Virus record (IMG/VR): IMGVR_UViG_3300017751_000046
Location: 1 to 42,394 of that record
Origin: a virus
Strand: one strand, 5' to 3'
Length of the DNA: 42,394 bases
Shown here: in pieces, positions 1 through 42,394 of the stretch
How the letters are laid out: each line of letters opens with the position of its first letter
Numbering within the stretch: position 1 is the first letter of the stretch
Notes under the pieces: generated by a model
What the model was told of the DNA's origin: nothing
The model's input: only the letters and a program-made list of their open reading frames with translations
Databases searched by the model: none
Made by a program: the position numbers and the translations under genes

Positions 1-73
1 AAATAATATTTGTCGAATCACCTCTATACTTCTGTGGGTGTCGAGGTTTAAATTTTCCTTGCATCAAAGGCAT
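1..73 (-). CDS. 4: Head completion protein gp4-like (partial, 5' end only)
   Basis: This leftward gene is cut off by the left window edge, so only about 24 residues are visible. The reading frame opens at ATG 73 (or an in-frame ATG at 64) and runs without a stop to base 1. The peptide starts MPLMQGKFKPRHPQKYRGDS and continues TNII. The GKFKP..P.KY.GD.TNII pattern is, from memory of the family, typical of the N-terminus of T4 gp4 (also called gp50), a head completion protein that acts on filled capsids before tail joining. In T4 gene 4 sits beside gene 53, and gp53 is two genes to the right here, which fits. A leftward late promoter box lies at 111-118. No strong ribosome binding site is visible, so the choice between the two ATGs is open. 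The identification rests on a short stretch. Confidence 0.6.
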   Translation of the reverse strand, partial: MPLMQGKFKPRHPQKYRGDSTNII

Positions 74-86
74 TATACATTACTCA

Positions 87-94
87 TATAAATA
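87..94 (+). promoter_or_regulatory. T4-type late promoter (rightward, hub operon)
   Basis: An exact TATAAATA box, the sequence recognised by the phage late sigma factor gp55 in T4-type phages, lies 39 bases upstream of the gp48-like start codon. With T4 spacing, transcription would begin near base 100. It probably drives the long run of overlapping genes from 133 onward. A leftward box sits only 16 bases downstream on the other strand. Confidence 0.7.
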
Positions 95-110
95 AAGTTA
101 TCACTTTATG

Positions 111-118
111 TATTTATA
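111..118 (-). promoter_or_regulatory. T4-type late promoter (leftward, gp4-like gene)
   Basis: TATTTATA on the + strand reads TATAAATA on the - strand, an exact match to the T4 late box, 38 bases upstream of the ATG of the leftward gp4-like gene. With T4 spacing its start site falls near base 105, so the two 5' untranslated regions would overlap and each transcript would cross the other promoter. Confidence 0.6.
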
Positions 119-132
119 CAGGATAAAAGTAA

Positions 133-1212
133 ATGGCAAGCGGTAACGAAACAGTTAATGCATCAAAAAAAGATTCTAGCTTAGAGGTCTTAAGTTTTCC
201 CAGTAACCTGGGCGTACACCAAATGATCTTAAAATTTTATGAATACGACTACTCTCGTGTGTCGAAAGGTAAGGGTGCTCATGGAGTAAAAGCATCTATC
301 GCTTTGCCGTTGCCGCAAAATATTGTTGATCAATCTCGCCTTGAGGTTGGCGGCACACAGTTGGGTGTGCTTGGCGGAATTACTGCAGACATCTCAGGTG
401 CTGCAAAGTCAGGTAATCTAAGTGCTAATGCACAAAAAGACATCAGTGCATTTAAAAATGAAGACGGTTCATTTAAAGGTGCTACTGAAATGATGAGTGC
501 TTTTGCGAATAATTTTAAAGATGTTATTGGTTCGGGCATGGATGCATCTGTTTATTTGTTGAAAGCAGGTGTAGGAAGCATTGCTCCGCAGATAGGACAA
601 GCATTATCAGCAACAAGTGGAGCAGCAATGAACCCACAAACAACGCTTGTATTTGACGGTGTTGATCTAAAAATTCATAACTTTGAATGGTTATTGTCTC
701 CTAAGAATGAAAAAGAACAGAAAGAATTAGATAAGATCATTCAACTCATACAATATTACATTCATCCTGACTATAAGAGTCCTGCCGCAGGATTAGAGTC
801 GTCAACATTCAGAAGTGTTAGTCGTGGACTGTTAACATATCCTGCGCTTATGCAAGTAGAGTTAGTTGGTGTGTCAGGTAATCTTAAGACAATATTTAAA
901 TCAGGTAAATATTTAATGGTCAATCAATTTGCTGTTGACTATACTCCACAGGGCATGGTATTGAATAAAGGCGGCACGGCATCAGTTATTCGTTGCTCGT
1001 TAAATACAACTGAAAGCGAAATTCATACTCGTGCCGACTATCGTTATGGCGAATTTGGTGCGTTAGGTGATGAGTCAAATACTCTTTCTGATATTTTAAC
1101 TGATGTGTTAGATGGCGCAGCGGACATTGAGAATATCATCCAAGGCGAAACCGATAGTCAACTCAGTGGCGCAGTTAATGATCTCGCAGACAAATATAAC
1201 GTAACCGCTTAG
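133..1212 (+). CDS. 48: Baseplate tail tube cap, gp48-like
   Basis: Likely gp48, which sits on the baseplate hub and, with gp54, starts tail tube polymerisation. The 359 residues are close to T4 gp48 (about 364). The N-terminus has the FPSNLGVHQMILKFYEYDYS segment (about residues 22-41), followed by a strand rich in ALPLPQNI, as in marine T4-like gp48 proteins. The C-terminal half (residues about 225-310) has an extended beta pattern with FAVDYTPQG, which recalls the tail-tube-like fold shared by gp48, gp54 and gp19. The central part (about 80-165) is rich in Ala, Gly and Ser. An AGGA lies upstream of the ATG. It is the first gene after the late promoter and is followed after 9 bases by gp53. 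It could instead be gp54, the sister protein; gp48 is preferred because of length and position. Confidence 0.72.
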   Translation: MASGNETVNASKKDSSLEVLSFPSNLGVHQMILKFYEYDYSRVSKGKGAHGVKASIALPLPQNIVDQSRLEVGGTQLGVLGGITADISGAAKSGNLSANAQKDISAFKNEDGSFKGATEMMSAFANNFKDVIGSGMDASVYLLKAGVGSIAPQIGQALSATSGAAMNPQTTLVFDGVDLKIHNFEWLLSPKNEKEQKELDKIIQLIQYYIHPDYKSPAAGLESSTFRSVSRGLLTYPALMQVELVGVSGNLKTIFKSGKYLMVNQFAVDYTPQGMVLNKGGTASVIRCSLNTTESEIHTRADYRYGEFGALGDESNTLSDILTDVLDGAADIENIIQGETDSQLSGAVNDLADKYNVTA

Positions 1213-12166: not shown

Positions 12167-12171
12167 TAGTA

Positions 12172-12179
12172 TATAAATA
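12172..12179 (+). promoter_or_regulatory. T4-type late promoter (gp8 block)
   Basis: An exact TATAAATA lies in the 39-base gap between the gp7-like and gp8 genes, 26 bases before the gp8 start codon. It should start a second late transcript covering gp8, the DUF4815 protein and the S74 fibre genes. Confidence 0.75.
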
Positions 12180-12205
12180 AAACAAACACTTAGGAAAACT
12201 TTTAC

Positions 12206-13870: not shown

Positions 13871-13887
13871 AGGAAAGAGTAAACTAA

Positions 13888-23702: not shown

Positions 23703-26700
23703 ATGGCAATAAAATTTAGTCAACTACCAGCAACCACAACGCTTGCGAACAATGATTTGTTTGCCGTAACATCGACAAGTGAAAATACTTCAGTAAGTAT
23801 TTCGTTCGCTAGCCTTAAAGACATAATGGTTGACGCTTCAACATTCACAGATAATGTGAACGATGTTGTGACCGCATTGAACTCATATACGACTGCCGGA
23901 ACATCACCTGCATTAAACGCAGGACAACTTGGCGGATTTGATAGTGCACATCATTTAAATTGGGATAACCTAACAGGTGTTCCGACTGTTCTGTCTAACA
24001 TGAAAAATGTGCCATTAGATTTGCATGATTTTGATAACAGTAAAGATGGCGGCGGATTTATTAAAATTGTTTCTGATGGAATCACAACTTCATTAGCATT
24101 TGATCTTGTCGATCAAGGTGTAACACAATCTACAACCGCTGTTACAACTGATTATGTGACTGAAGGCACTCAAAATTTATACTTCACCGATGACAGAATA
24201 GAAGGATATTTTGATTCTAATTTTGCCACGTATTTCAACACTTATAGTACAACATTCGATCAAGGTGAGGTGACTGATAGTTATTATGATACTGTAGGGT
24301 TCGCACCTTCAGGCACCCTTAGTGCAACGGGATTGGGCAGAGTTATCAGGATTAGGAACCAAGGACAGATTCCGGGCATGTCTGCTGATTATGCAAAAAG
24401 AAATCAGTCAGGTAGATTTGCATCTTATCAGCCGAATAAGGTTGTTCGATTATATGGCGCAGATTTGCCATCAAGAGAAGATCTAACAAATCAATTAAAC
24501 GTAACCAGCGAAGCAATCGGATTTACAGCTGTAAGTGATGGCAATGCAGGCATTACTCCTGCGTTTGACTCTGCTATTGTTGACGTTAATCAGAATGCGA
24601 TCACATTTAGCAGTCCTCACGGTCTTGCGACAGGTAATGACGTTATCTATAATTCTGGTCAAGGCACCGCTTTAGGTAATCTGACAAGCGGCGCAGCGTA
24701 TTATGTTATTAGAATTAGCGACACCGTTATTCAATTGGCTGATAGTTATGCAAACACTGGCGCAGGTGGCGGCAGTGCAACGCCACGAACAATTACTACT
24801 CAAGGTACAGGAACAACTCATACAATAACCCCTATTGTTGTAAATAATCCGTATCAAAGATTTACATATAGAGTGTGTGAATTTGATATGAACACAGGAC
24901 AAATTGCGCCTGCAGCAACACCTGTTTCTATTAACGTAAGTGTTCCTGCAACAACTGATCCTAACAATGTCACAACATTCTTGCAAGAAGATCGTAATGC
25001 GTTATTGAAATCCTTTAGTGTTGAAAATTTTGTAAAATTAAATTTTACTCACGTTATTGAGCTTGCAGTTGCTGACGGCGTATCTCCTAGTCGAGGACTT
25101 GCTGTTTATAGGTCAATAGCACAAGTAAATACTGTTGATTCAACTTTGCAAGGTGTGAGTAAACTTGTTGCTGTTTTAGGTCCTAAAGATTTAGTTAATG
25201 ATTCATGGATCGATTATTACACTGATGATATTTTAGATTATTCACTTAAAGATCAAGATGATAATTCATATATTCCTGAAAATACTGTACACTTTAAACC
25301 ATTCAGTGAAGGCGCTGATTCCGAGCGAGGTTGGGTAGACGCAACAATTGAAAGTGTACAATTCGAAGATGAAGTTAATGAATCGTTAAGTACTTTCATT
25401 GATGTTACGCTGAAATCAAGCGTTAAAATGAACTCGGGTGAAGTTAATGGTGTTTGGATCTCACATAATGATACAAATGCAATCCAAACAGGCATTCTAA
25501 ACAATGCAGGTCGTGGACAAAAGGCAGTTAGGTTAAATCCTAAAAATTATGTCGTCTCAGGAATAACTGTTCCCGCAAACTTTAGTGTCGAAGGATTTTC
25601 ATATAATACGAAATTAACCAAGTTGCCTTGGTCAGGGTGGAACGGATCAACAACCGCATCCTCATCAAAAATAATTACTGCTCAAAGCGAGACGGTCGGC
25701 ACACAAACAGTTACAAATTCAAGTTTTGTAGGATTTGATATTGACGGCAATGCTGTAAACTCGATAGCATTCGATGACACAACATTTAAAGGCAAAAACT
25801 CTGCGATTGATTGTGGTCAAAGATCTACTGCCGTATTGGTTGATAAAATTAGAATGACTAACGTAATCGGCGGCGGAATTTATGCGCCAGATTCAAAAAA
25901 TCTTAAAGTTGTTTCATCAGAAATAGTAAATAGTGCTGTCACAGACAGGCATGTGTTCTCTCCGCTTGTTGCTGACGGCGGCGAAAATACATCAATTTCT
26001 TCCAATAGATTTGAAAACTTCTCAGATAGTTTAGATGCATCTGTGACAAACAAAGGTGTTATTGAAGGCAACATTATTTCAAACTGTGGAACAGGTTTAT
26101 TGATGTACGGGTCAAGATTCATGATTACAAGTCCTAACGTATTGACAGGACCAGCAGGTGAATTTTTACCACAACCTGATACTTACAACTCAGAGTTTGA
26201 CTCGATTAATATTGATCTCACATCAGCATCTATTACTGATCCTATTGCTGATTTTAATTCTGGACCGTTTAAATATCAAGAGAACGGTGAAGTATATGAC
26301 CTTACCTCATCGCCCGTCACATATAAAATATTTGCTCTTAAGAAATCATCTCTCGGAGAAGAGTCAATTTGGATTGAAGATTTGCGACCACCAGAAAGTG
26401 ATGCTGCAGACAAACAAACAATCATAAATGTTTTCAATGCTGGCGCTGGTGGTGCAACTATTAATACAGGAAGTGACACGATACCTTTGCCGGATCACGA
26501 TTTAGTTACGGGCGATCCTGTTGTCTATAATGAAAATGATGGAGCGTACACATCATTAACAGACGGTACAACGTATTTCGTTAATGTTGTAGGGACTGAT
26601 AATGATGAAATTAAATTGTACGACACTCAAGCAAATGCGTTTGCTGGCGGCGATAACTCTGCAGGTCGAATAAACCTTGGTGCTGCAGGAGGAAGTAATA

Positions 26701-27377
26701 CCGGAGCAAATCATACATTGACACGAAGTGCATATGTTGAAATGCGACCTGGCTCTGAAGGTGACAATCCTCCTTCTGAGGGTGGATTCCAGTGGACAAT
26801 ACCATCTGCATCAGTACGCAGAATGAAAATTGCTGGTCAACAATATACAGTTGATTACATGAAAAATCCAAATAATACAATTTATCATACTTCTGGTGAT
26901 CCTGATAACGATATACCATTAGGCACACCTTCAACCACCGTAGGTGATGCTGATCACGTAGGTTTGGGTTGGTCGGGAACTGTGACACAATATGTACTCA
27001 ACGGCATCATTCAAAATGACCCGAGTGATCCTGCTATTTGGAGTGCGCAATATAACGACAACGGAAAAAATTACGCCAACTATACAGTTAAAGTTTCTGA
27101 TTATAAATACTTAGCAGTAGGCCGTAAAGTTCGACCGACAGCCGCAGGCGCAACAGCACATGACAACTTTAGTGCAGGTGACAATACTGTCGTTCCACCT
27201 CCTGCAGATTTTGGTGTCATTGAAAGCATTTCAGGGTCTAATACATTAAAAGAAGTCGTAATAAAATGGGAAAACGCAAATCCTATTGTTAATGCAAACC
27301 AAACAGCAGCAGTAGGATCAAGTGGAACATTAGAAGCAGAAAATAGTTTTGTAATCGCAACCGGAAGGATTAAATAA
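23703..27377 (+). CDS. Large tail fibre/tailspike-like protein with beta-helix region
   Basis: A 1224-residue protein of unknown exact role. The N-terminus (IKFSQLPATTTLANNDLFAV, about 3-22) is a module common at the start of phage fibres, probably for baseplate attachment, followed by a shaft region with NLYFTDDRIEGYF (about 158-170), another known fibre motif. Residues about 620-820 look like a right-handed parallel beta-helix: short turns with Asn, Gly and Ser such as NSSFVGFDIDGNAV, NVIGGGIYAPDSKNLKVVSS, SISSNRFENFS and GVIEGNIISNCGTGLLMYGS. Beta-helices in tailspikes often bind or cut polysaccharide, but I cannot identify catalytic acids. A repeated beta module with an H-(G/D)-L-x-(T/A)-G motif occurs twice (His306 and His932). 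First gene after a late promoter. Confidence 0.7.
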   Translation: MAIKFSQLPATTTLANNDLFAVTSTSENTSVSISFASLKDIMVDASTFTDNVNDVVTALNSYTTAGTSPALNAGQLGGFDSAHHLNWDNLTGVPTVLSNMKNVPLDLHDFDNSKDGGGFIKIVSDGITTSLAFDLVDQGVTQSTTAVTTDYVTEGTQNLYFTDDRIEGYFDSNFATYFNTYSTTFDQGEVTDSYYDTVGFAPSGTLSATGLGRVIRIRNQGQIPGMSADYAKRNQSGRFASYQPNKVVRLYGADLPSREDLTNQLNVTSEAIGFTAVSDGNAGITPAFDSAIVDVNQNAITFSSPHGLATGNDVIYNSGQGTALGNLTSGAAYYVIRISDTVIQLADSYANTGAGGGSATPRTITTQGTGTTHTITPIVVNNPYQRFTYRVCEFDMNTGQIAPAATPVSINVSVPATTDPNNVTTFLQEDRNALLKSFSVENFVKLNFTHVIELAVADGVSPSRGLAVYRSIAQVNTVDSTLQGVSKLVAVLGPKDLVNDSWIDYYTDDILDYSLKDQDDNSYIPENTVHFKPFSEGADSERGWVDATIESVQFEDEVNESLSTFIDVTLKSSVKMNSGEVNGVWISHNDTNAIQTGILNNAGRGQKAVRLNPKNYVVSGITVPANFSVEGFSYNTKLTKLPWSGWNGSTTASSSKIITAQSETVGTQTVTNSSFVGFDIDGNAVNSIAFDDTTFKGKNSAIDCGQRSTAVLVDKIRMTNVIGGGIYAPDSKNLKVVSSEIVNSAVTDRHVFSPLVADGGENTSISSNRFENFSDSLDASVTNKGVIEGNIISNCGTGLLMYGSRFMITSPNVLTGPAGEFLPQPDTYNSEFDSINIDLTSASITDPIADFNSGPFKYQENGEVYDLTSSPVTYKIFALKKSSLGEESIWIEDLRPPESDAADKQTIINVFNAGAGGATINTGSDTIPLPDHDLVTGDPVVYNENDGAYTSLTDGTTYFVNVVGTDNDEIKLYDTQANAFAGGDNSAGRINLGAAGGSNTGANHTLTRSAYVEMRPGSEGDNPPSEGGFQWTIPSASVRRMKIAGQQYTVDYMKNPNNTIYHTSGDPDNDIPLGTPSTTVGDADHVGLGWSGTVTQYVLNGIIQNDPSDPAIWSAQYNDNGKNYANYTVKVSDYKYLAVGRKVRPTAAGATAHDNFSAGDNTVVPPPADFGVIESISGSNTLKEVVIKWENANPIVNANQTAAVGSSGTLEAENSFVIATGRIK
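24580..24765 (+). repeat. HGL-type beta module, copy 1
   Basis: The copy encodes residues about 293-354 of the 1224-residue protein: SPHGLATGNDVIYNSG, then LTSGAAYYVI and IQLADSYANTG. It shares pattern (H-x-L-x-x-G-x-x-V, L-T-x-G-x-x-Y-x-V, I-x-L) with two other copies in the window, at the protein rather than the DNA level. Confidence 0.65.
26463..26658 (+). repeat. HGL-type beta module, copy 2
   Basis: The copy encodes residues about 921-985 of the same protein: PDHDLVTGDPVVYNEN, SLTDGTTYFVNVVG and EIKLYDTQANAFAGG. It is about 600 residues after copy 1 in the same polypeptide. Confidence 0.65.
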
Positions 27378-31637: not shown

Positions 31638-34600
31638 ATGCCAAGACAGGTCAAAATTGGATTTGATAAGGTACCATCACCTCCAGTAAAAACGTATCAT
31701 CAACTTACCGATATTTTCGGTACGCCGCTAGAAGATTTGGCAGGCAACCCTCTTGTTACAGAAGAAGATTCTGTAATATCTACCTTCGCACAGGCAAATA
31801 ATTCATTATCGAGTTTTGTTGCTAATAAGGAATCGTCAGAAAGCATTCCTATAGCAGAGAAATTTGGCACTGATTCAGAGGTAAGTACTACACTCCTAGG
31901 TGTGACTCGTGCAGAAGAACAGTTGAGTTTATTTGCCGATGTATCGACATACGGATTAGATGCATCTAATTGGAATTATTATACTGTAGGTCAAGGCAAT
32001 TATCCTTCGCAATGGTATAATAGAAAACATCCTGTTTTCGGCAAACGAGGTTTTGCGGCATTTAAAGAAGAGACAAATGAGCAGGCATTGTACCTGAAAT
32101 CTTTTCCTACGCAATTTCGTTATCCTCGTCATCCGAGCAAATCAACTGACACCTTCTCTCCGACAAGTGATTTCGGTAAATACATAAGATTTATTGCTTT
32201 AGGAAGATGGCTATTTGAAATATGGAAAGATGTAGATCCTGTATTTGCTGAAAATAACTTCTTGACAGATTGCTTGACTATTATCAGTTCATCAAAACAG
32301 AATATCCCAATAACAAAGCAATCGTGGAACATGACTCCTGCGGGCGGATTTGCGTCTGAAGCACAATTCCATAATGTAATATACACATCAGATTCCAATA
32401 ATGGCAATGACGATATACAAATTGCGATGAATCAAATTGAAAAATGGACTCTGTTCTATTTCAGAATAAGAAATGAAACAGACACATATCCAAAATATGT
32501 GGTTAATAACGGCGATGGATCAACGACAACATATCCCGTATTCAATCTTGAGGTGTTTACAAATAATCCTATACCAAATGTAGGACAATATCTCTATGTT
32601 CGTGACTATGTAAGCGCTGAAGTAACACGTCCAGGAGGATCTTCAATAAACTCTTCAATAGGAGTTTTAGAAAGTCGAAAAACATTTAGGTATCAACCTG
32701 GTCGTGTATCAGGATTCACATTCGGATTAAGGTTAAAGAATAATCCAGGGTCATCGGCGGACAAAATTGAATGGGGTTGTGCAAACCAGACAGATCAATA
32801 TATGTTCCAGATTTCAGGTACAAAATTTAATATTGTTCGCAGGTCAACTATTGCGATTCCTAACGATGTTGTTGAAGAAGAAGGCGGCATGAACCTTGTT
32901 CCTGCTTCAGATTTTCAGACAGATGAACCAGAAGTTCCGCCAAGTCGTGATAATTCAAAACCTATGTACACGCTCACAATTCCTCGTGACAAATGGAACG
33001 GAGATAGATTAGACGGAAGTGGTCCTTCAGGGCATATCATTAATCCTGAAAATGTTACAATGTATAAGATTGAATATTCATGGTATGGTGCAATTGGCGC
33101 AAAATTCTATGCATATGTTCCGATAGGTGGCGATGAATGCAGATGGGTACGTCTGCACACATTTGTAATCGAAAACAAACTACCTAGTCCGGTTTTAGAG
33201 AATGCTGATTTTAAATTTAGATATGTGCTTTATAATAACGTAACCGAGAATTTAACTGAACCTACGTTCATTTACAAATATGGGTCGTCATATTATATCG
33301 ATGGAGGCGATGAAGGAAGTATTACTCTAAATTCAGTCACATCAGGCACAAGATCGTTTGTAAACCCTAATAATACTGGCGCAATTATGGCGCTTCATCC
33401 CAAAGATTTAATATTTAACTCTTCAACAGATACGGTATACGGCGGAACGGCCAATAATAAAAAAATATATCCGCTGACACTATCTGTATTTTCAAGTGAT
33501 AATGTGCGTATTGATGTGAGTAAGGTTAAAGTTAGTCCTGATGGTCAACACGGCACAAAGTCAGTCGATCTTATAGCAGGCACTGCATTTGAAAAGGATA
33601 TTAAGTTTACAATAACTGATAGAAACCTTATAAATTTGACAGGTGATAGTCCATCTTCATTTGATGTTTTAGACACTAATGCAAAGGTTATTGGTGACGG
33701 GTTTTATAACATTTATACAGGCACTCTTTTCAACGCATTAAATGAAGTAAACACGACAAGGGCTGAGATACTGAGAAGAGAACAATATCAATTAGGTGCT
33801 GACACAATAGGTGAAGCGATAAGGCTTGTTGACAAGACAAGTATCAATATTAGTCCTGCTACAGACACAACAGTTTTCAATGCTAAACTTACTTCGTATA
33901 GGAGTATAGTTGCATCTGACACTCCTATTCGAACTAATAGGTTTAAGATACATTTTTTGAATCCATTAAGAAAGGACTCAAGATATTCTTATTTTCATTG
34001 GGCTGATTTTGCAATAGGTGTTACTGGCGATGCGCCAACAACAGCTGTTGAATCGACTCAAAATGGATTACAAGGACATCTAAAATTCGGTGCATATGAT
34101 CGTGTCTATCACGATACTATTCCTGAATCAGAGTATGATAATAATTATTATTTTGATATTAATAAGCAATTAATGGTTGAATGGACGAATCAACATCATG
34201 TTAATTCATTAAGAGATGTTGCTGATCTGCGTGAAGTAGAAGGGGCCCATGGCAGTCGTCTCGAGCAAGATTATCGTATTCGTGGCACTGATCTGCCTAT
34301 GAGCAGAAAATTGTCTAACGGGAGAGTTAGTACGAAAGGTGTGCTAGGATGTGTTAAGGGTGAAGTGAGGGTTATAGAGTACCCGATATCTTTAATTGAT
34401 GATCAAAATGTTCCCGTAAATGCCGACTTGAGGGTCGTCTTCGCTACTACCGCATTTCCTCCTGTAACACAAAATACACTAGGAATTGCTGAATTAGGAT
34501 TTAATGAGGGCGGGTCGGGATATGTATTCATGACTGCCCCTGCTGTGCAGATAGTAGATGGCGCACAGGTGTATGTTGCATATATCAGAAAACTAAACGG

Positions 34601-35234
34601 TGCGGCATCAGTAGCCGATTTTGCATTAACAGGAAGTTCGACAACTTATGATTCCTCAACTCATGTCACATCAATTCAAGCAAAAGTTGTTACACTAGAA
34701 GACGACAATAAAATTTCTGGCTCTGACAACGCAAAAGATTTCACAGTACAAGACGTATATAGATTTAACATTCAGCCTTTGTATTTGTTTGTTGCAATGA
34801 AGTCAAACGCTCGAATAAATAATATCATCGTTGAAGAAATTACATCAACTGAAAGAACGTCACATGTACCTAACTTTATAGGTGCTACTAACGAAACAGG
34901 ATTTAATGATACATCGAACATAACAATAGAAAAAGATGTGTTGGCATCACCTTCTTTGTCACCTTCAAACTTTATCCCTAAGGATGGATTATCAGGAATA
35001 AAATTTGATATTAATACAAGCAATCCTGTTGCAGACGAAAAAGAAAAATTATATTCATTTTATGTGGGGCAAAACGAAGCGGTGAAATTTGGATTACAAG
35101 ACATATTTGATATTGATCGTGCTTACTTGACAAGCGGATTATATAACAATGAGGCGTTATATTTCAATGCGGTTCCCGTAGGCGATAATGCGTCTGCTGA
35201 TGTTCAAATGACATTAACAGTTAAGGAGCAGTAA
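31638..35234 (+). CDS. Large virion structural protein, paralogue B
   Basis: A 1198-residue protein that shares, in the same order, the four conserved blocks of the preceding gene: SEVSTTLLGVTRAEEQLSLF and ADVSTY (about 81-106), TFRYQPGRVSGFTFGLR (about 349-365), KIEYSWYGAIGAKFYAYVPI (about 477-496), and KYGSSYYIDGGDEGSITLNS (about 548-567). The C-termini both end in a beta strand followed by (E/K)EQ. The spacing differs: the second block is far later and the third and fourth are far earlier, so insertions have been gained or lost on each side. Gene A ends with TAG immediately before this ATG. The first 80 residues are unlike those of A and carry FGTPLEDLAGNPLVTEEDS. Function is unknown; a tail or fibre component is likely from context. 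Confidence 0.65.
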   Translation: MPRQVKIGFDKVPSPPVKTYHQLTDIFGTPLEDLAGNPLVTEEDSVISTFAQANNSLSSFVANKESSESIPIAEKFGTDSEVSTTLLGVTRAEEQLSLFADVSTYGLDASNWNYYTVGQGNYPSQWYNRKHPVFGKRGFAAFKEETNEQALYLKSFPTQFRYPRHPSKSTDTFSPTSDFGKYIRFIALGRWLFEIWKDVDPVFAENNFLTDCLTIISSSKQNIPITKQSWNMTPAGGFASEAQFHNVIYTSDSNNGNDDIQIAMNQIEKWTLFYFRIRNETDTYPKYVVNNGDGSTTTYPVFNLEVFTNNPIPNVGQYLYVRDYVSAEVTRPGGSSINSSIGVLESRKTFRYQPGRVSGFTFGLRLKNNPGSSADKIEWGCANQTDQYMFQISGTKFNIVRRSTIAIPNDVVEEEGGMNLVPASDFQTDEPEVPPSRDNSKPMYTLTIPRDKWNGDRLDGSGPSGHIINPENVTMYKIEYSWYGAIGAKFYAYVPIGGDECRWVRLHTFVIENKLPSPVLENADFKFRYVLYNNVTENLTEPTFIYKYGSSYYIDGGDEGSITLNSVTSGTRSFVNPNNTGAIMALHPKDLIFNSSTDTVYGGTANNKKIYPLTLSVFSSDNVRIDVSKVKVSPDGQHGTKSVDLIAGTAFEKDIKFTITDRNLINLTGDSPSSFDVLDTNAKVIGDGFYNIYTGTLFNALNEVNTTRAEILRREQYQLGADTIGEAIRLVDKTSINISPATDTTVFNAKLTSYRSIVASDTPIRTNRFKIHFLNPLRKDSRYSYFHWADFAIGVTGDAPTTAVESTQNGLQGHLKFGAYDRVYHDTIPESEYDNNYYFDINKQLMVEWTNQHHVNSLRDVADLREVEGAHGSRLEQDYRIRGTDLPMSRKLSNGRVSTKGVLGCVKGEVRVIEYPISLIDDQNVPVNADLRVVFATTAFPPVTQNTLGIAELGFNEGGSGYVFMTAPAVQIVDGAQVYVAYIRKLNGAASVADFALTGSSTTYDSSTHVTSIQAKVVTLEDDNKISGSDNAKDFTVQDVYRFNIQPLYLFVAMKSNARINNIIVEEITSTERTSHVPNFIGATNETGFNDTSNITIEKDVLASPSLSPSNFIPKDGLSGIKFDINTSNPVADEKEKLYSFYVGQNEAVKFGLQDIFDIDRAYLTSGLYNNEALYFNAVPVGDNASADVQMTLTVKEQ

Positions 35235-38200
35235 TGGCTATATACACAGGTCTGAATGTATCATTACACCTAAATGATGTAAATAATTCTAGCGAGTCTT
35301 TAAGAAACTTGGGAATGAATCGCAAGGATTTTGATCATATTCGTGGACTCAGTAATGTTTTAGAGACAAGAAACCAGCTTCATTTGCTAGGAAACCTTGA
35401 CGTTGATCAACAAAAACAAACATATCTAATGTATCGATCAGCAGTCAGCATGGGTGCAGAATTAGATAATATTGATGACACGAACAAACCATTACCTTAC
35501 GATATTCGCATCAATAATCAGTTACGTGCTGGCGCAATAAAATATAAGTATTTAGACGGGTCAAATACACTTAAAGGTGCTGATATTTCGACAAGTCGTG
35601 TATCTTCGTGGTCGCAGATAGGTGACGGGCCGATCTTTTACGGCGCTGATGTGAATATCAATCCTTATGACGGATCTGATGCATCAACAGGTGATCCCAG
35701 CAAAAGCATTTTAAAATTAAAAGATATTGTATTTAAAGGCGAATTTTCTCCTAAACGATTTGCTGCTGAAGTTCCTACGCACACGGTTACTGTAAATGTA
35801 AACGGAGTTGATCGTGAATTATATGCTATGCGCAACATTCCTATGCGATTTGAAGGTAATTTTTCTAGTGCAAAAGTTACATATTCAATTGATAATGCAT
35901 CTGTTGCGCCGACAGTTTTATTTGTAGATCCTCAAAATTTCGATCCGCCGTTAGAGGTTGCCGTAACAGGTCCTACGAGTACAGTAAATCATACCGCTGA
36001 AGTAACAAACATCAAAGGCGGCGATAAATTTATTGATATTTACTATAGACCTGACGGGCTAAAAAAGTTGACATTGCCTGCTATGCAAATGTTCAACTTC
36101 CCTGCCATAGAGTTGAGGAATTTAAATTCAATATCTGTTGCAAATAATAAACTAGAGAATATGCCTGATTGGTTCGCTATCAGCGGAGGCAATCTTAATG
36201 GGCACACACAGGCACTAACATCAATTACAATATCAGGTAATCCGTTATATAAATCTTCTGATGTTGCTAACACCCAATTGCAAAAATTGCCCAGGTCAGT
36301 ACAAACATTAAATATGCATGGATGCTTTTCTGATTCAACTCCTATTGACATAAGTCAATTAAAACAAGGTGGAGGATCAACAACTTTAGTCGATTCAAAT
36401 TTAAAAAATTTCAGGTTTAGCGGATGGAATAATAATAAAAGAGTTGACATGAAAGATACTGGTACAACACCAAAGGTCAATATTTCTACAATTCTGAATT
36501 ATCAAGTCAGATATCATCCGTATACTCGTTTAAGTTATAGTGCAGCAGGCGCACCGAATTTGAACAGCTTAGATCTTTATGCAATGGATATCAATTCAGC
36601 AGAACAATCAAATGGATCAACAACATCAACGATCACAATTGCTTCTTCAGGCATTAAAACTATAAACATGGACTTTAATGCTGTAGACGTAATAGATGTC
36701 TCGGGTAAACAAGAACTTACATCTTATACACACAGACATAATGGTGGCAGTGCAAACAATAATATAGAAACATTGTTTACTGGGTGTGTTGCGCTATCTT
36801 CTTTAGATTTTGAAAGTTCGAGTGTGACAGGAAACTTAGACAGCATTTTCACAGGACTTCCTGAACTATCATTACTAGATTTGCGAAGCACTAGATTGAC
36901 GGGAAAGATGACCGCTAGCGCTTTCGCTGGAACGAAATTACAGGAATTTAACTGTACAGGTGGTCAATTTGTTACTGCAGTTGGTCAAAACAACTTTTTC
37001 GGTAACGATCATATTCCTATTGCAAATGAACCTCCCGGAGCAGTAGGGTCAGATTATGAGGGTGGGTATTATGCAGGAACAATTGTCGATAACAGCAACG
37101 AAGAGTATTGGCTAGTTGTTTCGGATAAAAGTCACGAAGTCATACGTTCACGATATGCAATTCTTGGAGGTAACGGAACTTCTGGGTCAACAGATGCAAG
37201 GACTGGTTTGGATAATACTACTGTTGAATTTAATACCTCAGCTTATGAAGCGGCGAGTTATGCTTTGGGATTGAGTGTTACAGATGGCGACACAACATAC
37301 GATGATTGGTATATTCCATCAAAAAGTGAACTTGAAATGATGTATCGGAATTTCAAACCGACATCAACACCCAATGACACATCAAGTGGGAACAATCCTC
37401 ATTCTAGGCCAACATATACGACAACTTATAATGATAACCCGATAAATCCTACACAAACGCCTTTCAGTGCTTTCCAGACAGGCGGCGCACAAGCATTTTC
37501 AACGCCTGCGCCTCAACAATATGTCTCTAACTTCAATTTCTCTTCTGGGACAAGTGGATGGTCAGGGTTTAACGGCGCAACAATATCTGTGCCACAAGGA
37601 AGCAGTAATAAGATTCGTGTAACGCAAGATTCTGCCGGAACTGCTGCAGCAGGAACGCCAAGTGCGACTGATGCAGTTGCTGGCAACGCAGGTGTATTCC
37701 GGACAGTAACTCTACCTGCTGGGACATATGATTTTGATTTTGAATTTACCGCTTCTAGAGCAACAATTCCTTCCGGGTCGTTTGTTTCTGGCGAAACATA
37801 TGAAATTGTAAGTGTAGGAACTGCACCAACATTTAATAATATTACATATTCAAGTATCAATCAAACCAATGATAGAATCACGCTAGGTTCTGGTCACGGA
37901 TTAACTAATGGAACAATCGTCACATTTAGTTATGTTTCAGGTGTCACAGAAAATTTTACAAATCTAGTTAATGGAACAAATTACAGGGTCGTTGACACAG
38001 CGGCAGCGTCTGTTAAATTAGAACCTGTCGGTGGTGGCGGTGCAATTGATATTGCACAATCTGCAGATGTGACTCATGCATATACAATTACTGCTGGTGA
38101 CGGAACTGATTATACGTTTGATGCAGGAACGGATCGAGCCATATCCTTTGCATCCGGAACAACAGATCCTGATCTTATGATACTTTTAGGTGATACTGCA

Positions 38201-39655
38201 ACATTTGATTTAACCGCTTTGTCGGGCGCTCATCCTTTGTATATAAAAACAGCATTGGGTTCAGGCACAACAAATCAAATAATAGATTCAACTGTAACAG
38301 GTCAAGGCACAGGCAATGTCTCATTCACTCCAACATCAGCAGGGACATATTATTATCAATGTTCTGCTCATCCTGATATGAATGGATCAGTCCGAGTATT
38401 ACAGAGATCAGGAACATTTGGTATTGCTGTTGATCTTACAGAGAACTGGAATGATATTGGTGCAAGTACTGTTGCCGTGGGAGCAAACTTCGATGCTTCA
38501 GGGTCATATGCTACAGGAACTACTCTTTACGGTGCATCTGTTGCACTCGCAAGCAGCAACGACCTTTATGAGCATTATGTGTACGGATTAATATCATCAG
38601 GAACTGATCCTGATACCTCAAGTTTATTAAATTCAGTTGCAAGCTATAAATATGATGCTATAAACGATACTGCTACGATTTCAGGTAATGGGACTACTTC
38701 TGCAAGCACATTTACTGTTGATGCGCAAGCAACATATGTTGTAAGTTTAAAATCATTTGCATTTGATCTTGATGTCACGAATATATCAATTCGAAGCAGG
38801 GAAGGGTATTATTGGACATCAACTAGCTCATCAGCTGTTAATACTCAAGGTATTGCACAAAACTTCGACAATGGTGAACAGGTTGATGTACATAAAGATC
38901 ACAGATATTTGGTGCGCCCAGTTAGGCGAGTAAGTAAAAACTCTGACGTATCTTCTGAGCAACAAGGAACATCATTAACATTCCAACCTGTTCAATCAAC
39001 TTTGGTTAACTTTACACTTGAAGGTCAAGGAAGAAATGCATCGACTGGGCCTAATATACGAGGAAAGATGCCTAATACTGCATATCTTGCACAAATACAA
39101 ACCTTTAGTTTGACCAATACGCAAATCGAAGGAATTGTTCCTGATTTCAGCAACTCTCTGAACTTGAATAAGTTGATTTTAAGCAATAACAATTTTACAG
39201 GTCCCTTTGCAATTAACAATCCTTCAGTGGCGCAAGTTGAAATCCAAAATAACAACTTGACAGGGATAGGGTCACTATTTGCAGCAAATATGTGGAAATT
39301 GCATGGTCAGGATAACGATTTTGAAAATGCTGTGCCGTCTTTCGTAGCATGCCAAGATATATCTGATATAAATCTGAGTAGAAATCAGTTTACTGGGTAT
39401 TTGGCAGGGTCTTTGTCCACAAACCTCGAATTGAAAAAATTAAATTTATCAGAGAATGCATTAACAGAGGGTGCTGCACAGAGAATCTTCGAAGACATGA
39501 TGACAAACTGGACTGCTAATACACGAGATGGAGTGACTGTAAATTTATCGGGCAATCCTCAAGTGAGAGAATCGAGATTAATTAAAAACGCAACCACAGG
39601 CGGAATTATACGAGAGTTGAGATCTGCTGGCTGGACAATATTGCTCAACGCATAG
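35234..39655 (+). CDS. Leucine-rich-repeat tail protein with inserted Lcl/DUF1566 and cupredoxin-like modules
   Basis: A 1473-residue mosaic. Residues about 290-590 and 1260-1425 hold leucine-rich repeats; the last block is clearest: LNKLILSNNNFTG, ISDINLSRNQFTG, LKKLNLSENALT. Residues about 605-720 begin a DUF1566/Lcl domain (GGYYAGTIV, DDWYIPSKSELEMMYRNF), which resumes at about 1189-1235 (GYYWTSTSS, FDNGEQVDVHKDHRYLVRPV); this family has a C-type-lectin-like fold. The roughly 450 residues between the halves hold a beta-sandwich-like piece (NFNFSSGTSGWSGFNG, about 768), an HGL-type module (His888) and a cupredoxin-like segment (about 957-1060) with His1000, Cys1043, His1046 and Met1049. A role in receptor or glycan binding is inference. 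The start overlaps the preceding stop by one base. Confidence 0.7.
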   Translation: MAIYTGLNVSLHLNDVNNSSESLRNLGMNRKDFDHIRGLSNVLETRNQLHLLGNLDVDQQKQTYLMYRSAVSMGAELDNIDDTNKPLPYDIRINNQLRAGAIKYKYLDGSNTLKGADISTSRVSSWSQIGDGPIFYGADVNINPYDGSDASTGDPSKSILKLKDIVFKGEFSPKRFAAEVPTHTVTVNVNGVDRELYAMRNIPMRFEGNFSSAKVTYSIDNASVAPTVLFVDPQNFDPPLEVAVTGPTSTVNHTAEVTNIKGGDKFIDIYYRPDGLKKLTLPAMQMFNFPAIELRNLNSISVANNKLENMPDWFAISGGNLNGHTQALTSITISGNPLYKSSDVANTQLQKLPRSVQTLNMHGCFSDSTPIDISQLKQGGGSTTLVDSNLKNFRFSGWNNNKRVDMKDTGTTPKVNISTILNYQVRYHPYTRLSYSAAGAPNLNSLDLYAMDINSAEQSNGSTTSTITIASSGIKTINMDFNAVDVIDVSGKQELTSYTHRHNGGSANNNIETLFTGCVALSSLDFESSSVTGNLDSIFTGLPELSLLDLRSTRLTGKMTASAFAGTKLQEFNCTGGQFVTAVGQNNFFGNDHIPIANEPPGAVGSDYEGGYYAGTIVDNSNEEYWLVVSDKSHEVIRSRYAILGGNGTSGSTDARTGLDNTTVEFNTSAYEAASYALGLSVTDGDTTYDDWYIPSKSELEMMYRNFKPTSTPNDTSSGNNPHSRPTYTTTYNDNPINPTQTPFSAFQTGGAQAFSTPAPQQYVSNFNFSSGTSGWSGFNGATISVPQGSSNKIRVTQDSAGTAAAGTPSATDAVAGNAGVFRTVTLPAGTYDFDFEFTASRATIPSGSFVSGETYEIVSVGTAPTFNNITYSSINQTNDRITLGSGHGLTNGTIVTFSYVSGVTENFTNLVNGTNYRVVDTAAASVKLEPVGGGGAIDIAQSADVTHAYTITAGDGTDYTFDAGTDRAISFASGTTDPDLMILLGDTATFDLTALSGAHPLYIKTALGSGTTNQIIDSTVTGQGTGNVSFTPTSAGTYYYQCSAHPDMNGSVRVLQRSGTFGIAVDLTENWNDIGASTVAVGANFDASGSYATGTTLYGASVALASSNDLYEHYVYGLISSGTDPDTSSLLNSVASYKYDAINDTATISGNGTTSASTFTVDAQATYVVSLKSFAFDLDVTNISIRSREGYYWTSTSSSAVNTQGIAQNFDNGEQVDVHKDHRYLVRPVRRVSKNSDVSSEQQGTSLTFQPVQSTLVNFTLEGQGRNASTGPNIRGKMPNTAYLAQIQTFSLTNTQIEGIVPDFSNSLNLNKLILSNNNFTGPFAINNPSVAQVEIQNNNLTGIGSLFAANMWKLHGQDNDFENAVPSFVACQDISDINLSRNQFTGYLAGSLSTNLELKKLNLSENALTEGAAQRIFEDMMTNWTANTRDGVTVNLSGNPQVRESRLIKNATTGGIIRELRSAGWTILLNA
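37862..38071 (+). repeat. HGL-type beta module, copy 3
   Basis: The copy encodes residues about 877-946 of the LRR protein: SGHGLTNGTIVTFSYVSG, LVNGTNYRVVDT and VKLEPVGGGGAIDIA. It matches the pattern of the two copies in the 1224-residue protein over 11 kb away, suggesting that the module has been shuffled between tail genes. Confidence 0.6.
38116..38415 (+). other. Cupredoxin-like domain with a possible type-1 copper site
   Basis: The segment encodes about 100 residues. The order is GDTATFDLTALSGAHPLYIK with His1000, then VSFTPTSAGTYYYQCSAHPD with Cys1043 and His1046, then Met1049, Gly1051 and a VRV strand. His...Cys-x2-His-xn-Met is the ligand order of plastocyanin-like proteins, but the His-to-Met spacing is two residues rather than the four of plastocyanin. 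Copper binding is inference from the pattern. Confidence 0.6.
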
Positions 39656-39664
39656 GTATCATAA

Positions 39665-40801
39665 ATGGCAATCGGATTTGCAAAAACATCAAACTTATTC
39701 GAATCGCAAGATTCAAATTCTGCGACTAAAATATTTAACAATCTTGCAGGAGAAGGCATTTCTTCTGATATTGCGTTATTCACGAATAACTTACGCACAG
39801 TAACTGAACTTGATTACACAAATTTCAAAGCAAGCGCACAATCTTTTCCTTCTGCAGATGAGGTTTTTTATACTGTAGGAAATGCCTCTGCATACGAGTA
39901 TATAGTCATTCCTTCTAGCGAGTTCGGCAAAGTTCCGTTTAGTAATAATTCGATCATATATGTTGTACAGGATAATAGCATTAAAACTTCGTATATAGTT
40001 GATGACAGCAATGGCATTGATAGGTTCAGACTATATGCTTGGAACGGCACAACAAAAGGTGCTGTCGCATCATGGGACGATTTTAAAGATCTTGAAACCA
40101 AAAAGTTTTTTAGGCAAGATCCTGTCACATTTGCCAACATAACCAATTACTCTAAAGATCGCATAACAATGAACGATGGGTCAACATCTTTAGAGAATCC
40201 GTATTCATTACCAGAAGAGTTACAAACTAGCAATAGAGATCGGTCACAACAAGTAACATTTCTAAAAACTCTTACGCCACAAACTTTGAATAGTCGAATT
40301 GATAGTGCAATAGAAAATTTCCGATATAAAGAATCAAGAAGTATACTTACACACAGAAAAACTACACTTAATAAATTATTAAATGTGGGCGGTAGTGTAC
40401 AAATAGCGAATGATGCTGGGTTAGTGCTAGGAACTACAGCAACCAATGACACAATGCCCGGATTATATATCATGGCTGATGGCGTCAAGGAAAGAGCGTT
40501 TTCTGACACAAACAACCCGTGGGTCGTAGGGACTGAAGATTTGACTTCGTATGATACTGACGACACTGTTCTTGCAACAGAAAGTTTTATAAAAACTGGT
40601 TCGTCAACGCAAAATGCACAAGTGTTTAATCTACTTTATAAGGGTCCCAACCCACACATAATAACAACAAACGCTTCAGGTGTCAGAGCAACCAATGGTT
40701 CAAAAGTAGTCGACTCAACATGGACACATAAAGCCAAAGTTGAAATTAATGGCGAATCATATTATATTTTATTAACTGATCAAGCAAGTACTTTCAGTTA
40801 A
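39665..40801 (+). CDS. Unrecognised structural protein, probable fibre component
   Basis: I do not recognise this 378-residue protein. The N-terminus (MAIGFAKTSNLFESQDSNSA) has the short polar form of other fibre genes here. The middle contains a Tyr-rich beta segment (NNSIIYVVQDNSIKTSYIVD), a helical, charged part (about 200-240, ESRSILTHRKTTLNKLLNVG), and the end is beta-rich, ending in GESYYILLTDQASTFS. The start is 9 bases after the stop of the LRR gene, so it belongs to the same transcript. Its stop TAA overlaps the stop of the convergent gene by two bases. It has no transmembrane segment or signal peptide. By context a minor tail or fibre component is likely, but this is unproven. Confidence 0.6.
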   Translation: MAIGFAKTSNLFESQDSNSATKIFNNLAGEGISSDIALFTNNLRTVTELDYTNFKASAQSFPSADEVFYTVGNASAYEYIVIPSSEFGKVPFSNNSIIYVVQDNSIKTSYIVDDSNGIDRFRLYAWNGTTKGAVASWDDFKDLETKKFFRQDPVTFANITNYSKDRITMNDGSTSLENPYSLPEELQTSNRDRSQQVTFLKTLTPQTLNSRIDSAIENFRYKESRSILTHRKTTLNKLLNVGGSVQIANDAGLVLGTTATNDTMPGLYIMADGVKERAFSDTNNPWVVGTEDLTSYDTDDTVLATESFIKTGSSTQNAQVFNLLYKGPNPHIITTNASGVRATNGSKVVDSTWTHKAKVEINGESYYILLTDQASTFS

Positions 40802-42394
40802 TTCATTAATATCCAATAATCTTTGTAGGTGCTTGCGCCTGTTTTCTCTTTTAGTAGCAACCCTGTATTTGCTGTTGCTGTTGTAGGAGAGGCGACCTCT
40901 GTTGTATTAGCCTGATCCATAGTAATACCCGTTATCTCAAAGTCTCCGCCGATGGATAAATGCGGGTGCGATGCAACTGTTGATAATCCTAAGTCAGTTC
41001 CTGCAAAAGGCGGTGCGGTATTTAATGGGATAATACACAATTCTTTATCGCCGGTTGTCGGATCGCTTCCAGGATCATTCGCATCTTTTACAAATATTAA
41101 TGTTCTTGAAGCAGGCAAACTGCCAATGAGACCCGTTGATAATGTGATTGACGGAGGATTTGTTGCACTATTTACGCTAGAAACTCGAGTCGTATTTGTA
41201 CCTGAAACTATTCCGGGAAGTTGTACGAAATCGCCGCTACTTCCTGAAGTAATATCATTCACATCTGTTAAGAATATTTGCGTGGCGCCAGAATTTGCTG
41301 TAACAGCGACTTCTTTTCCGTAAACGCCTTCACATTGCGCAGATACTGAATGATCAGATAGTCCACGATGAGCATATACAAGACACCAATTATGACTACT
41401 ACTATTAAATGTGTCATTTCCTATAGCTTTAGAGCCCAACAAAACTGTATCCATGTTGGTAGTAGTATCAGTAATAAATACGTGTCTAATTTTCCTACAC
41501 GTATTTTGCGTAGTGTTTAGTGTTATCATAAGATCATCTGGACGTATATCATTTGTTTCGTATTGATGTCCTGTATAAGGTACAATTACGCCACCTGCGG
41601 AATCGTAGGCGTTACCTGCTTCTTTTACACTATGGTTTAGGCTTGCACCCGCACCACCGGAGTAGGTAGTTATATGCTGAAAGATGCCCAACAATCCTTT
41701 TGGCTTAACAACAAAATAATTTTGCGATTGACCGACTGTTATTAAAGCACCTGATGCCAAATCTTCGACCATCGACCCCTTAAAGGGTTCCGTGATAATA
41801 ATATTACCTCTTACTTCATATACTTGAAAATAGGTGTAGCCAGTCGAATTAGCAAAAGCGGGCAATAATATATCACCTTCTTCAACAAATGTTGCTGATG
41901 TGTAAAATGTCTTTTCACCTAAATATGTAAAGGCATAATTTGCACCACTATTTTTAACATAATCATTTACAGAGGTTGTCGGAGCATAGTCAATGTACAC
42001 AGGTTTTTCGTTTTGTAAATATTGATCACTCTTTTTTAATCTGCCGCTGATTCTATTTCTTTTGAAATGATCAAATGTGTTCACCTTTGCCACGCTGTCA
42101 GGTGCCAATTGAGGTGTTTTGTACCAATAATTAAAAGGTGTGGTGCTCGAGGCACTATCACCTGTATCCTTTATGTCGAAAAAGAATTTTAACGGGCCGT
42201 ATGTACTCACACCAGTTTTAAGGTTAGTGCTTGCGCCGGTGCTCTGCCCAGGAATAAGAGTGTGGTCTCCCCCAAATTGCTCTGGACGTGGGTACCATAC
42301 AGTTAGTCGTATTCTATTCGTTTGTCCTTTAGCTTTACTGCCAAATGGGTTAAAGTCGACACGTAAATCATCTTCACCTATATTCCATGTAAAA
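40798..42394 (-). CDS. Unrecognised leftward structural-type protein (5' end outside window)
   Basis: The frame is open from base 42394 to the stop at 40798-40800, so at least 531 residues are present and the true start lies beyond the right edge. A GTG at 42210 could be mistaken for the start, but the frame continues upstream through readable protein (FTWNIGEDDLRVDFNPFGSK at the edge, then RIRLTVWYPRPEQFGGDHTL). The visible part is beta-rich: PVYIDYAP, GYTYFQVYEVRGNIIITEPF, VKPKGLLGIFQHITTYSGGA, then Ser/Thr/Asn-rich strands and a C-terminal GASTYKDYWILMN. The GGAG-rich and NT-rich turns fit a virion protein, but no family is recognised. It is convergent with the fibre block and its promoter is not in the window. 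Confidence 0.7.
   Translation of the reverse strand, partial: FTWNIGEDDLRVDFNPFGSKAKGQTNRIRLTVWYPRPEQFGGDHTLIPGQSTGASTNLKTGVSTYGPLKFFFDIKDTGDSASSTTPFNYWYKTPQLAPDSVAKVNTFDHFKRNRISGRLKKSDQYLQNEKPVYIDYAPTTSVNDYVKNSGANYAFTYLGEKTFYTSATFVEEGDILLPAFANSTGYTYFQVYEVRGNIIITEPFKGSMVEDLASGALITVGQSQNYFVVKPKGLLGIFQHITTYSGGAGASLNHSVKEAGNAYDSAGGVIVPYTGHQYETNDIRPDDLMITLNTTQNTCRKIRHVFITDTTTNMDTVLLGSKAIGNDTFNSSSHNWCLVYAHRGLSDHSVSAQCEGVYGKEVAVTANSGATQIFLTDVNDITSGSSGDFVQLPGIVSGTNTTRVSSVNSATNPPSITLSTGLIGSLPASRTLIFVKDANDPGSDPTTGDKELCIIPLNTAPPFAGTDLGLSTVASHPHLSIGGDFEITGITMDQANTTEVASPTTATANTGLLLKEKTGASTYKDYWILMN

Follow-up and report, generated by a model that had tools for sequence, protein, structure and literature searches.

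What is a phage protein that combines leucine-rich repeats (LRRs), a divided lectin-like domain, and a cupredoxin in one chain, and what might it do for the virus? The question is raised by an open reading frame (ORF) of a marine phage, in IMG/VR virus record IMGVR_UViG_3300017751_000046, a 42,394-base virus fragment that we analyzed over its whole length (the window). The ORF at 35234..39655 (+) starts with ATG and encodes a single protein of 1473 amino acids (aa), the exact extent given in a first-pass annotation made from the sequence alone. Its domains are nested, from the outside in, in the order LRR, Lcl, jelly-roll, small module, and HGL plus cupredoxin. On balance, we favor the reading that the protein is a large virion adhesin of an S-TIM5-related T4-like myovirus, in which an LRR chassis carries nested cargo on one loop and binds the host.

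We first consider the lectin-like domain. The first-pass annotation placed the two halves of an Lcl/DUF1566 domain at aa 605 to 720 and 1189 to 1235, with about 450 residues between them; the split stands, with boundaries revised to aa ~594 to 758 (37013..37507, +) and aa 1188 to 1235 (38795..38938, +) and an insert of ~430 residues. Pfam Lcl_C (PF07603) detected the C-terminal part only, positions 75 to 117 of its 117 matching aa 1189 to 1231 (E value, 1.3e-5; 25.9 bits; cut-off, 34.9), and left the first half unscored. Scores also fell below this curated cut-off in all 11 records searched, and the domain is a split Lcl-type domain rather than a curated Pfam member of PF07603. Insert-free DUF1566 proteins of Pseudomonas phages matched aa 595 to 757. 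Taking Lcl relatives from IMG/VR (the best 80 of 337 confirmed relatives), we built a 202-position profile from the 87 distinct insert-free viral copies among the loci collected. This profile matched both halves, with positions 6 to 178 at aa 599 to 779 (1.1e-36, 123.5 bits) and 159 to 200 at aa 1190 to 1233 (4.3e-7, 26.8 bits), compared with a top score of 10.8 bits over 1000 residue shuffles of the protein. Insert-free homologs and viruses with the same architecture had both been proposed as checks, and among the loci collected from IMG/VR, nine (the window included) carry the Lcl nest. The two-piece match recurred in 9/9 carriers, with a modest second piece in L044 and L045 (0.001 to 0.002).

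The 109 distinct Lcl ORFs comprised 87 that were insert-free over the full model, the 9 carriers, and 13 that were cut, partial, or shortened; 7 shortened ORFs miss ~45 to 55 profile positions just ahead of the carriers' insert point. When the insert-free rows and the carriers were aligned with MAFFT, a gap from ~758 to 1190 opened unprompted, and the insert-free rows ended at aa ~758. The insert lies in an Lcl loop ahead of the YWTSTS strand. A tandem Lcl duplication was rejected, as the two pieces cover different parts of the profile except at the tail of the first (6 to 178 versus 159 to 200).

Two AlphaFold models were made, one of aa 274 to 1473 with 33 orthologs (mean predicted local distance difference test score [pLDDT], 76.4; predicted template modeling score [pTM], 0.50; LRR parts confident) and one of aa 590 to 1245 (656 residues) whose alignment was supplemented with rows of insert-free Lcl and of cupredoxin (mean pLDDT, 80.8; pTM, 0.59). 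Model 1 alone is insufficient to settle the Lcl domain. In model 2, the two halves pack as one domain, the check that the first-pass annotation had proposed, and align jointly with the Legionella Lcl C-terminal domain 8q4e_A (Z score, 12.3; root mean square deviation [rmsd], 2.6; 124/131 residues; 25% identity; aa 594 to 1233). Ranges of structural alignments give first and last residues only, and inner boundaries were set from ortholog alignments. A profile of insert-free viral Lcl (A9) matched 8q4e at 1.3e-7; when a single insert-free Lcl sequence (P0002) was compared with the PDB sequences, the one match was irrelevant (1.4). Based on the sequence profiles, the joint alignment of both halves to a solved Lcl, and the insert-free homologs, we conclude that the insert is nested in what is modeled as one C-type-lectin-like domain. 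A Foldseek search of the PDB with the 656-residue model returned mostly cupredoxins in its top rows, and VIA-align revealed the other folds; a BFVD search yielded mainly proteins of phages, cyanophages among them, and TM-scores over the full model were low.

The LRRs had been described as flanking the Lcl domain. The repeats themselves were borne out, but "flank" is too weak a word for an Lcl domain inserted into a single solenoid. The first LRR part covers aa 274 to 593 (36053..37012, +; pLDDT mostly 80 to 96, with dips to 63 to 73), and the second, at aa 1242 to 1473 (38957..39652, +), was recognized by Pfam, phmmer, AlphaFold, and structural alignment. Pfam LRR_8 matched the C-terminal part at 1.2e-5 (25.4 bits, under the cut-off of 27), and phmmer matched plant LRR receptors at 1.5e-13. 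All 50 of the 50 listed solved LRR chains aligned across both parts, every row starting by model residue 223 and ending at residue 1172 or later, and 25 of the 50 spanned 1..1200; 5gr9_B, for example, aligned over model range 1..1200 (Z score, 26.9; rmsd, 4.8; 467 residues). In the model, both LRR stretches form one continuous solenoid. The Lcl domain is itself an insertion within the LRRs, because both stretches align to single solved solenoids and Lcl-free orthologs exist. Ahead of the solenoid lies an N-terminal family domain (aa 1 to 273; 35234..36052, +), a candidate virion anchor that is conserved in relatives across a 9-sequence and a 7-sequence set, with invariant columns at S119, T120, S121, R122, S124, W126, and S127 and at A198, M199, I202, and P203.

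The beta-sandwich, HGL, and cupredoxin elements that had been noted within the insert are all present. Three features go beyond that note: the modeled LRRs make up a single solenoid, the sandwich piece is one of the two halves of another split domain, and a further small module is probably divided too. The first half of the sandwich, a carbohydrate-binding-module-like jelly-roll, lies at aa ~759 to 852 (37508..37789, +; DUF5013 match of 1.2e-4, below cut-off), and the second half lies at aa ~1097 to 1187 (38522..38794, +), where the lower boundary was placed via the alignment with L044 and L045. Over model residues 170..601 (aa 759..1190), model 2 aligned with 8xmz_A (Z score, 12.4; rmsd, 2.9; 129/137 residues) and with 8ic1_A (Z score, 13.2; rmsd, 2.4; 129 residues). 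As modeled, the jelly-roll is assembled from both ends of the insert and is thus the second split domain. Seated in a jelly-roll loop is a beta module of ~40 residues, whose profile we trained on 29 contiguous copies from non-carrier proteins. Profile positions 1 to 16 matched its first part (aa 853 to 868; 37790..37837, +) at 6.1 bits, and positions 16 to 40 matched at aa 1071 to 1094 within its second part (aa ~1070 to 1096; 38441..38521, +) at 11.5 bits, compared with at most 10.7 bits in 1000 shuffles. The module is contiguous in L044 and L045 (2.6e-7 and 2.7e-6 when 13 proteins were searched). In the window it is probably split, and it is the least-supported level of the nesting.

At the center of the nest are two further domains. 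An HGL-type beta module resembling E1_FCCH occupies aa ~869 to 943 (37838..38062, +) and was found with an HGL profile; its identification as a true E1_FCCH domain was not adopted, given a Pfam E value of 0.038 and a UBA6 chain at rank 44 in Foldseek. The HGL profile also matches other proteins of these phages. We observed HGL modules in the N-terminal LRR part of carriers L018 (aa 373 to 452) and L019 (aa 431 to 468), at the other cargo position, and two HGL matches in each of the L015, L016, L017, and L019 ORFs that correspond to window positions 23703-27377. The module thus seems to be reused in several proteins of these phages.

The cupredoxin domain follows at aa ~944 to 1059 (38063..38410, +). 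Profile A5 matched PDB chains of nitrite reductase, rusticyanin, amicyanin, and plastocyanin, and the Pfam Copper-bind and Cupredoxin_1 scores were under cut-off. The model, with pLDDT blocks of 88 to 96 over most of the domain, has a cupredoxin beta-barrel fold, with aa 945 to 1058 aligning to 2dv6_A (Z score, 10.0; rmsd, 2.3; 95 residues) and with a further alignment to rusticyanin 2cal (Z score, 9.1; rmsd, 2.7; 96 residues). We take H1000, C1043, H1046, and M1049 to be the four type-1 copper ligands, an assignment presumed from amicyanin and azurin. All four candidates are kept in 86/92 distinct copies that cover the four positions and in 7/7 cupredoxin-bearing orthologs. Copper binding by the domain is probable, although it may serve in no more than a structural or adhesive capacity. 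HGL and cupredoxin recur side by side, with HGL again first, in cyanophage proteins whose annotation reads baseplate wedge tail-fiber connector (29.6% identity over query positions 126 to 307 of the insert, 4e-4 to 5e-4), and because of this recurrence the two may travel as a cassette.

How the nest was assembled can be addressed through its relatives. Searches by tblastn with the N-terminal part plus LRR, and with the C-terminal LRR alone, gave no phage-record match at an E value of 0.01, and relatives were therefore gathered through IMG/VR; a scan of genome contigs added two relatives, both on contigs of metagenome-assembled genomes. Scans with the neighboring gene and with the N-terminal and LRR part yielded 78 distinct ortholog loci, 9 of which carry the Lcl nest. 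LRR-only orthologs are numerous; in L024 (781 aa) and L026 (786 aa), for example, the same LRR loop is empty. L044 and L045 carry the Lcl domain, jelly-roll, and contiguous small module without HGL or cupredoxin. The existence of relatives lacking some levels suggests that the nest was built by successive insertions.

We mapped insertions in 72 complete distinct orthologs with hmmalign on a 798-position LRR-only profile, excluding ORFs cut by contig ends and collapsing identical sequences before each count. Insertions of at least 40 aa occur in 26/72. Internal insertions number 36, with 18 at position 579, 15 at 369, 2 at 427, and 1 at 142, so that 33/36 fall at two LRR positions; these are sequences, not events, and their placement depends on hmmalign. 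Close relatives were counted separately (the window, L001, and L002; L044 and L045; L091 and L094; L021 and L022). Seven further insertions are C-terminal extensions. The Lcl nest sits at position 579 in 9/9 carriers. In L025 (15982-17439), we observed a different stretch of ~490 residues, with a weak FG-GAP match (0.14), in the LRR loop used by Lcl elsewhere.

Genomic context bears on where such a protein would act. The ORF lies after a block typical of a T4-like myovirus tail, as judged from family matches of the window ORFs: a tail-tube cap (phrog_230), gp53, a gp5-like hub, gp25, gp6, additional wedge proteins of the baseplate, and a pair of proteins bearing the tail-fiber S74 chaperone. 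Between the S74 genes and the ORF are three large genes, the last two of which match phrog_1645, labeled "virion structural protein" in the category head and packaging. The immediate upstream neighbor (31638..35234, +; 1198 aa; phrog_1645) has a homolog upstream in 76/78 distinct ortholog loci, the upstream side being cut by contig ends in the remaining 2; its best cultured-phage matches are to cyanophages S-TIM54 and S-TIM5. The downstream neighbor (39665..40801, +; 378 aa), to which no function is assigned, has a homolog downstream in some ortholog loci. Directly past this neighbor in L001, we observed an opposite-strand ORF of 838 aa without a Pfam match (11562-14078, minus strand), whose window counterpart at 40798-42393 runs off the window end. 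There was no match to Photo_RC (psbA/psbD) in the 11 records searched. Third-position guanine-plus-cytosine content was 0.20 to 0.33 among segments of the gene (0.06 in one 16-codon piece); recent acquisition of segments was rejected, as these values are close together and no fresh import is visible.

The nesting, synteny, and purifying selection of this gene are established by computation. Gene order following the baseplate and S74 tail-fiber genes supports an adhesin and makes a tail location likely, and the S-TIM5 and S-TIM54 homologs, annotated as virion structural, likewise support a virion protein. To that extent, the first-pass name "tail protein" survives as a likely one, although the annotations of the neighboring PHROG and of homologs read head and packaging. 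Legionella Lcl has a C-type-lectin-like fold and binds sulfated glycosaminoglycans, according to PMC11162425, and DUF1566 was the commonest annotated target domain of diversity-generating retroelements (DGRs) in a human-microbiome survey, according to PMC4159848. For these two reasons, it is fair to suppose that the nest domains bind glycan or protein. The proposal of a multi-ligand receptor-binding device can likewise fairly be drawn from the domain types.

In the adhesin that we favor, the conserved N-terminus would anchor the protein in the virion and, together with the continuous LRR solenoid, would serve as a chassis on which one fixed loop carries the nest. As modeled, every inserted domain exits and re-enters its parent; the nest should therefore protrude, standing off the LRR rod as a side head with several potential ligand surfaces. 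The LRRs and nested domains would bind glycans or proteins of the host surface, and phages could shift specificity through cargo swaps at the LRR loop sites. A broader version, plausible to us at somewhat less than even chances, makes the protein a receptor-recognition rack, whose conserved LRR solenoid would offer fixed sites on two loops for the exchange of nests up to five domains deep. To the same tentative degree, phages might re-aim adhesion by swapping and nesting cargo rather than by fiber-tip mutation, with relatives preserving the intermediates.

By the ratio of nonsynonymous to synonymous substitution rates (dN/dS), estimated against the two closest relatives, purifying selection acts on every part of the gene. 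The highest values, 0.32 to 0.60 in both comparisons with the window, were those of the cupredoxin and the following stretch, for which the comparison of L001 with L002 gave just 0.07 and 0.23. In all three comparisons, dN/dS of the C-terminal LRR was 0.04 to 0.07, and this was the slowest-evolving segment in both window comparisons. The pattern is compatible with a fixed chassis bearing an exposed head, without proving it.

Several observations weigh against a nested, host-binding adhesin. Purifying selection throughout gives no sign of an arms race, and both upstream neighbors match the head and packaging family phrog_1645. In model 1, built with orthologs only, the Lcl halves were poorly folded (pLDDT, ~43 to 75). 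Closure of the Lcl domain in model 2 depends on the added insert-free rows (the split in the sequence does not), and the pTM values of 0.50 and 0.59 make domain orientations unreliable. The second Lcl piece is weak in L017 (0.16). Profiles of the jelly-roll halves match just the nine carriers among 278 loci, with no free or uninterrupted copy, and the identity of this domain therefore rests on the model. The score of the first small-module part was matched by 5/1000 shuffles and is weak; this piece is also poor in L002 (0.41), L018 (2.4), L127 (0.16), and L019, and the small-module profile found no match in L017.

The alternative that best survives is that of a head-decorating or general structural protein, on capsid or tail, whose nested domains are modules for weak nonspecific adhesion or stability. 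We regard it as unlikely, at about one chance in a handful, yet it draws on the head and packaging category of the neighbor family and on the annotation "virion structural protein and packaging" of the homologs in S-TIM5 and S-TIM54. The S74-type tail fibers encoded separately in the window could also be the primary receptor-binding proteins. The PHROG label, however, is a family annotation and not a test, and the location beside the baseplate and fiber block, together with varied cargo at fixed loops, better matches a host-facing role.

Far less probable is a protein whose active part is the cupredoxin, which would carry or sequester copper or transfer electrons on the surface of the virion. 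The conservation of the four type-1 ligands described above would favor this, but the ligands could also be conserved for stability. The absence of cupredoxin from L044 and L045, and of the whole nest from LRR-only orthologs, marks the domain as optional cargo. In addition, the family searches of those window ORFs that were scanned, not all of them against both libraries, named no redox enzyme.

We consider it more doubtful still that a DGR acts on the Lcl nest. DGRs commonly target DUF1566 (PMC4159848), and the contig of the LRR-only relative L024 carries such an element, with its reverse transcriptase ~11 kb downstream of the LRR gene. RVT_1, though, had no match in the window or in the contigs of the 8 other carriers, all of which are fragments, and the variable repeats of the L024 contig are located in two other ORFs. 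On that contig (L281:14505-18378), the likely DGR lies ~8 to 12 kb downstream of the LRR gene, with a template repeat near 17105-17276, a reverse transcriptase ORF at 17320-18378, and two ORFs whose ends hold the variable repeats, which start at 15363 and 16870. In the best 80-base windows, 16/17 and 11/11 mismatches were at template A (26/46 and 23/42 over 150 bases).

Finally, Pfam scores under curated cut-offs might hint at two Lcl remnants without any relation to each other or at an assembly or frameshift artifact in the ORF. Two other contigs, however, encode the full-length protein (94 to 95% identical in its best segment), the same Lcl split is present in six more carriers at 37 to 39% identity, and the model shows one fold. 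This alternative thus has next to no probability, and assembly error is refuted unless every contig has the same error.

Each of these domains was already known. Among the matches listed by a search of the open literature, with most subscription papers outside its scope, there was no phage virion-type protein with domains nested five deep on an LRR chassis that has two ports for cargo, no LRR-solenoid chassis of a phage virion protein, and no cupredoxin in tail fibers. If the virion adhesin reading is true, phages have a way to evolve host binding through stepwise domain insertion into loops at fixed ports. Since extant relatives lack several of the levels, the order of assembly is open to direct test. 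Another testable oddity is the conservation of copper-site residues in a virion-type protein.

Comparison with known systems places each level of the nest. The fold of the Legionella Lcl C-terminal domain (8q4e; PF07603) matches the model when both halves are used. The Legionella domain has no interruption and sits at the C-terminus, forming a trimer on a collagen-like stalk (PMC11162425), whereas the phage domain is split by ~430 residues and seated on an LRR loop. A free-standing DUF1566 protein of Pseudomonas phage PMBT3 (AUM59635.1), which is 35.5% identical to the first Lcl half, has ~217 aa and neither insert nor LRR. Plant LRR receptor ectodomains (PXY/TDR and HAESA) likewise form one continuous LRR solenoid; the phage protein differs in its large domain nest on one loop, and the likeness extends to the repeats only, not to function. 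With the cupredoxins amicyanin, rusticyanin, plastocyanin, and the nitrite reductase domain, the phage domain shares the fold and four ligand positions, and its C-x2-H-x2-M loop is presumably like that of amicyanin. Unlike known cupredoxins, this domain, with its predicted copper binding, is deeply nested in an adhesin-like protein. The closest counterparts in cultured phages share the chassis: S-TIM5 AEZ65694.1 belongs to the same LRR family (1.8e-31 to the LRR-only profile) and has no Lcl, HGL, cupredoxin, or small-module match. S-TIM54 UYE97282.1 is also of this family (2.3e-17 to the N-terminal LRR profile; no Lcl match), and its gene follows a homolog of the 1198-aa neighbor; at both LRR positions, the S-TIM54 protein carries other material.

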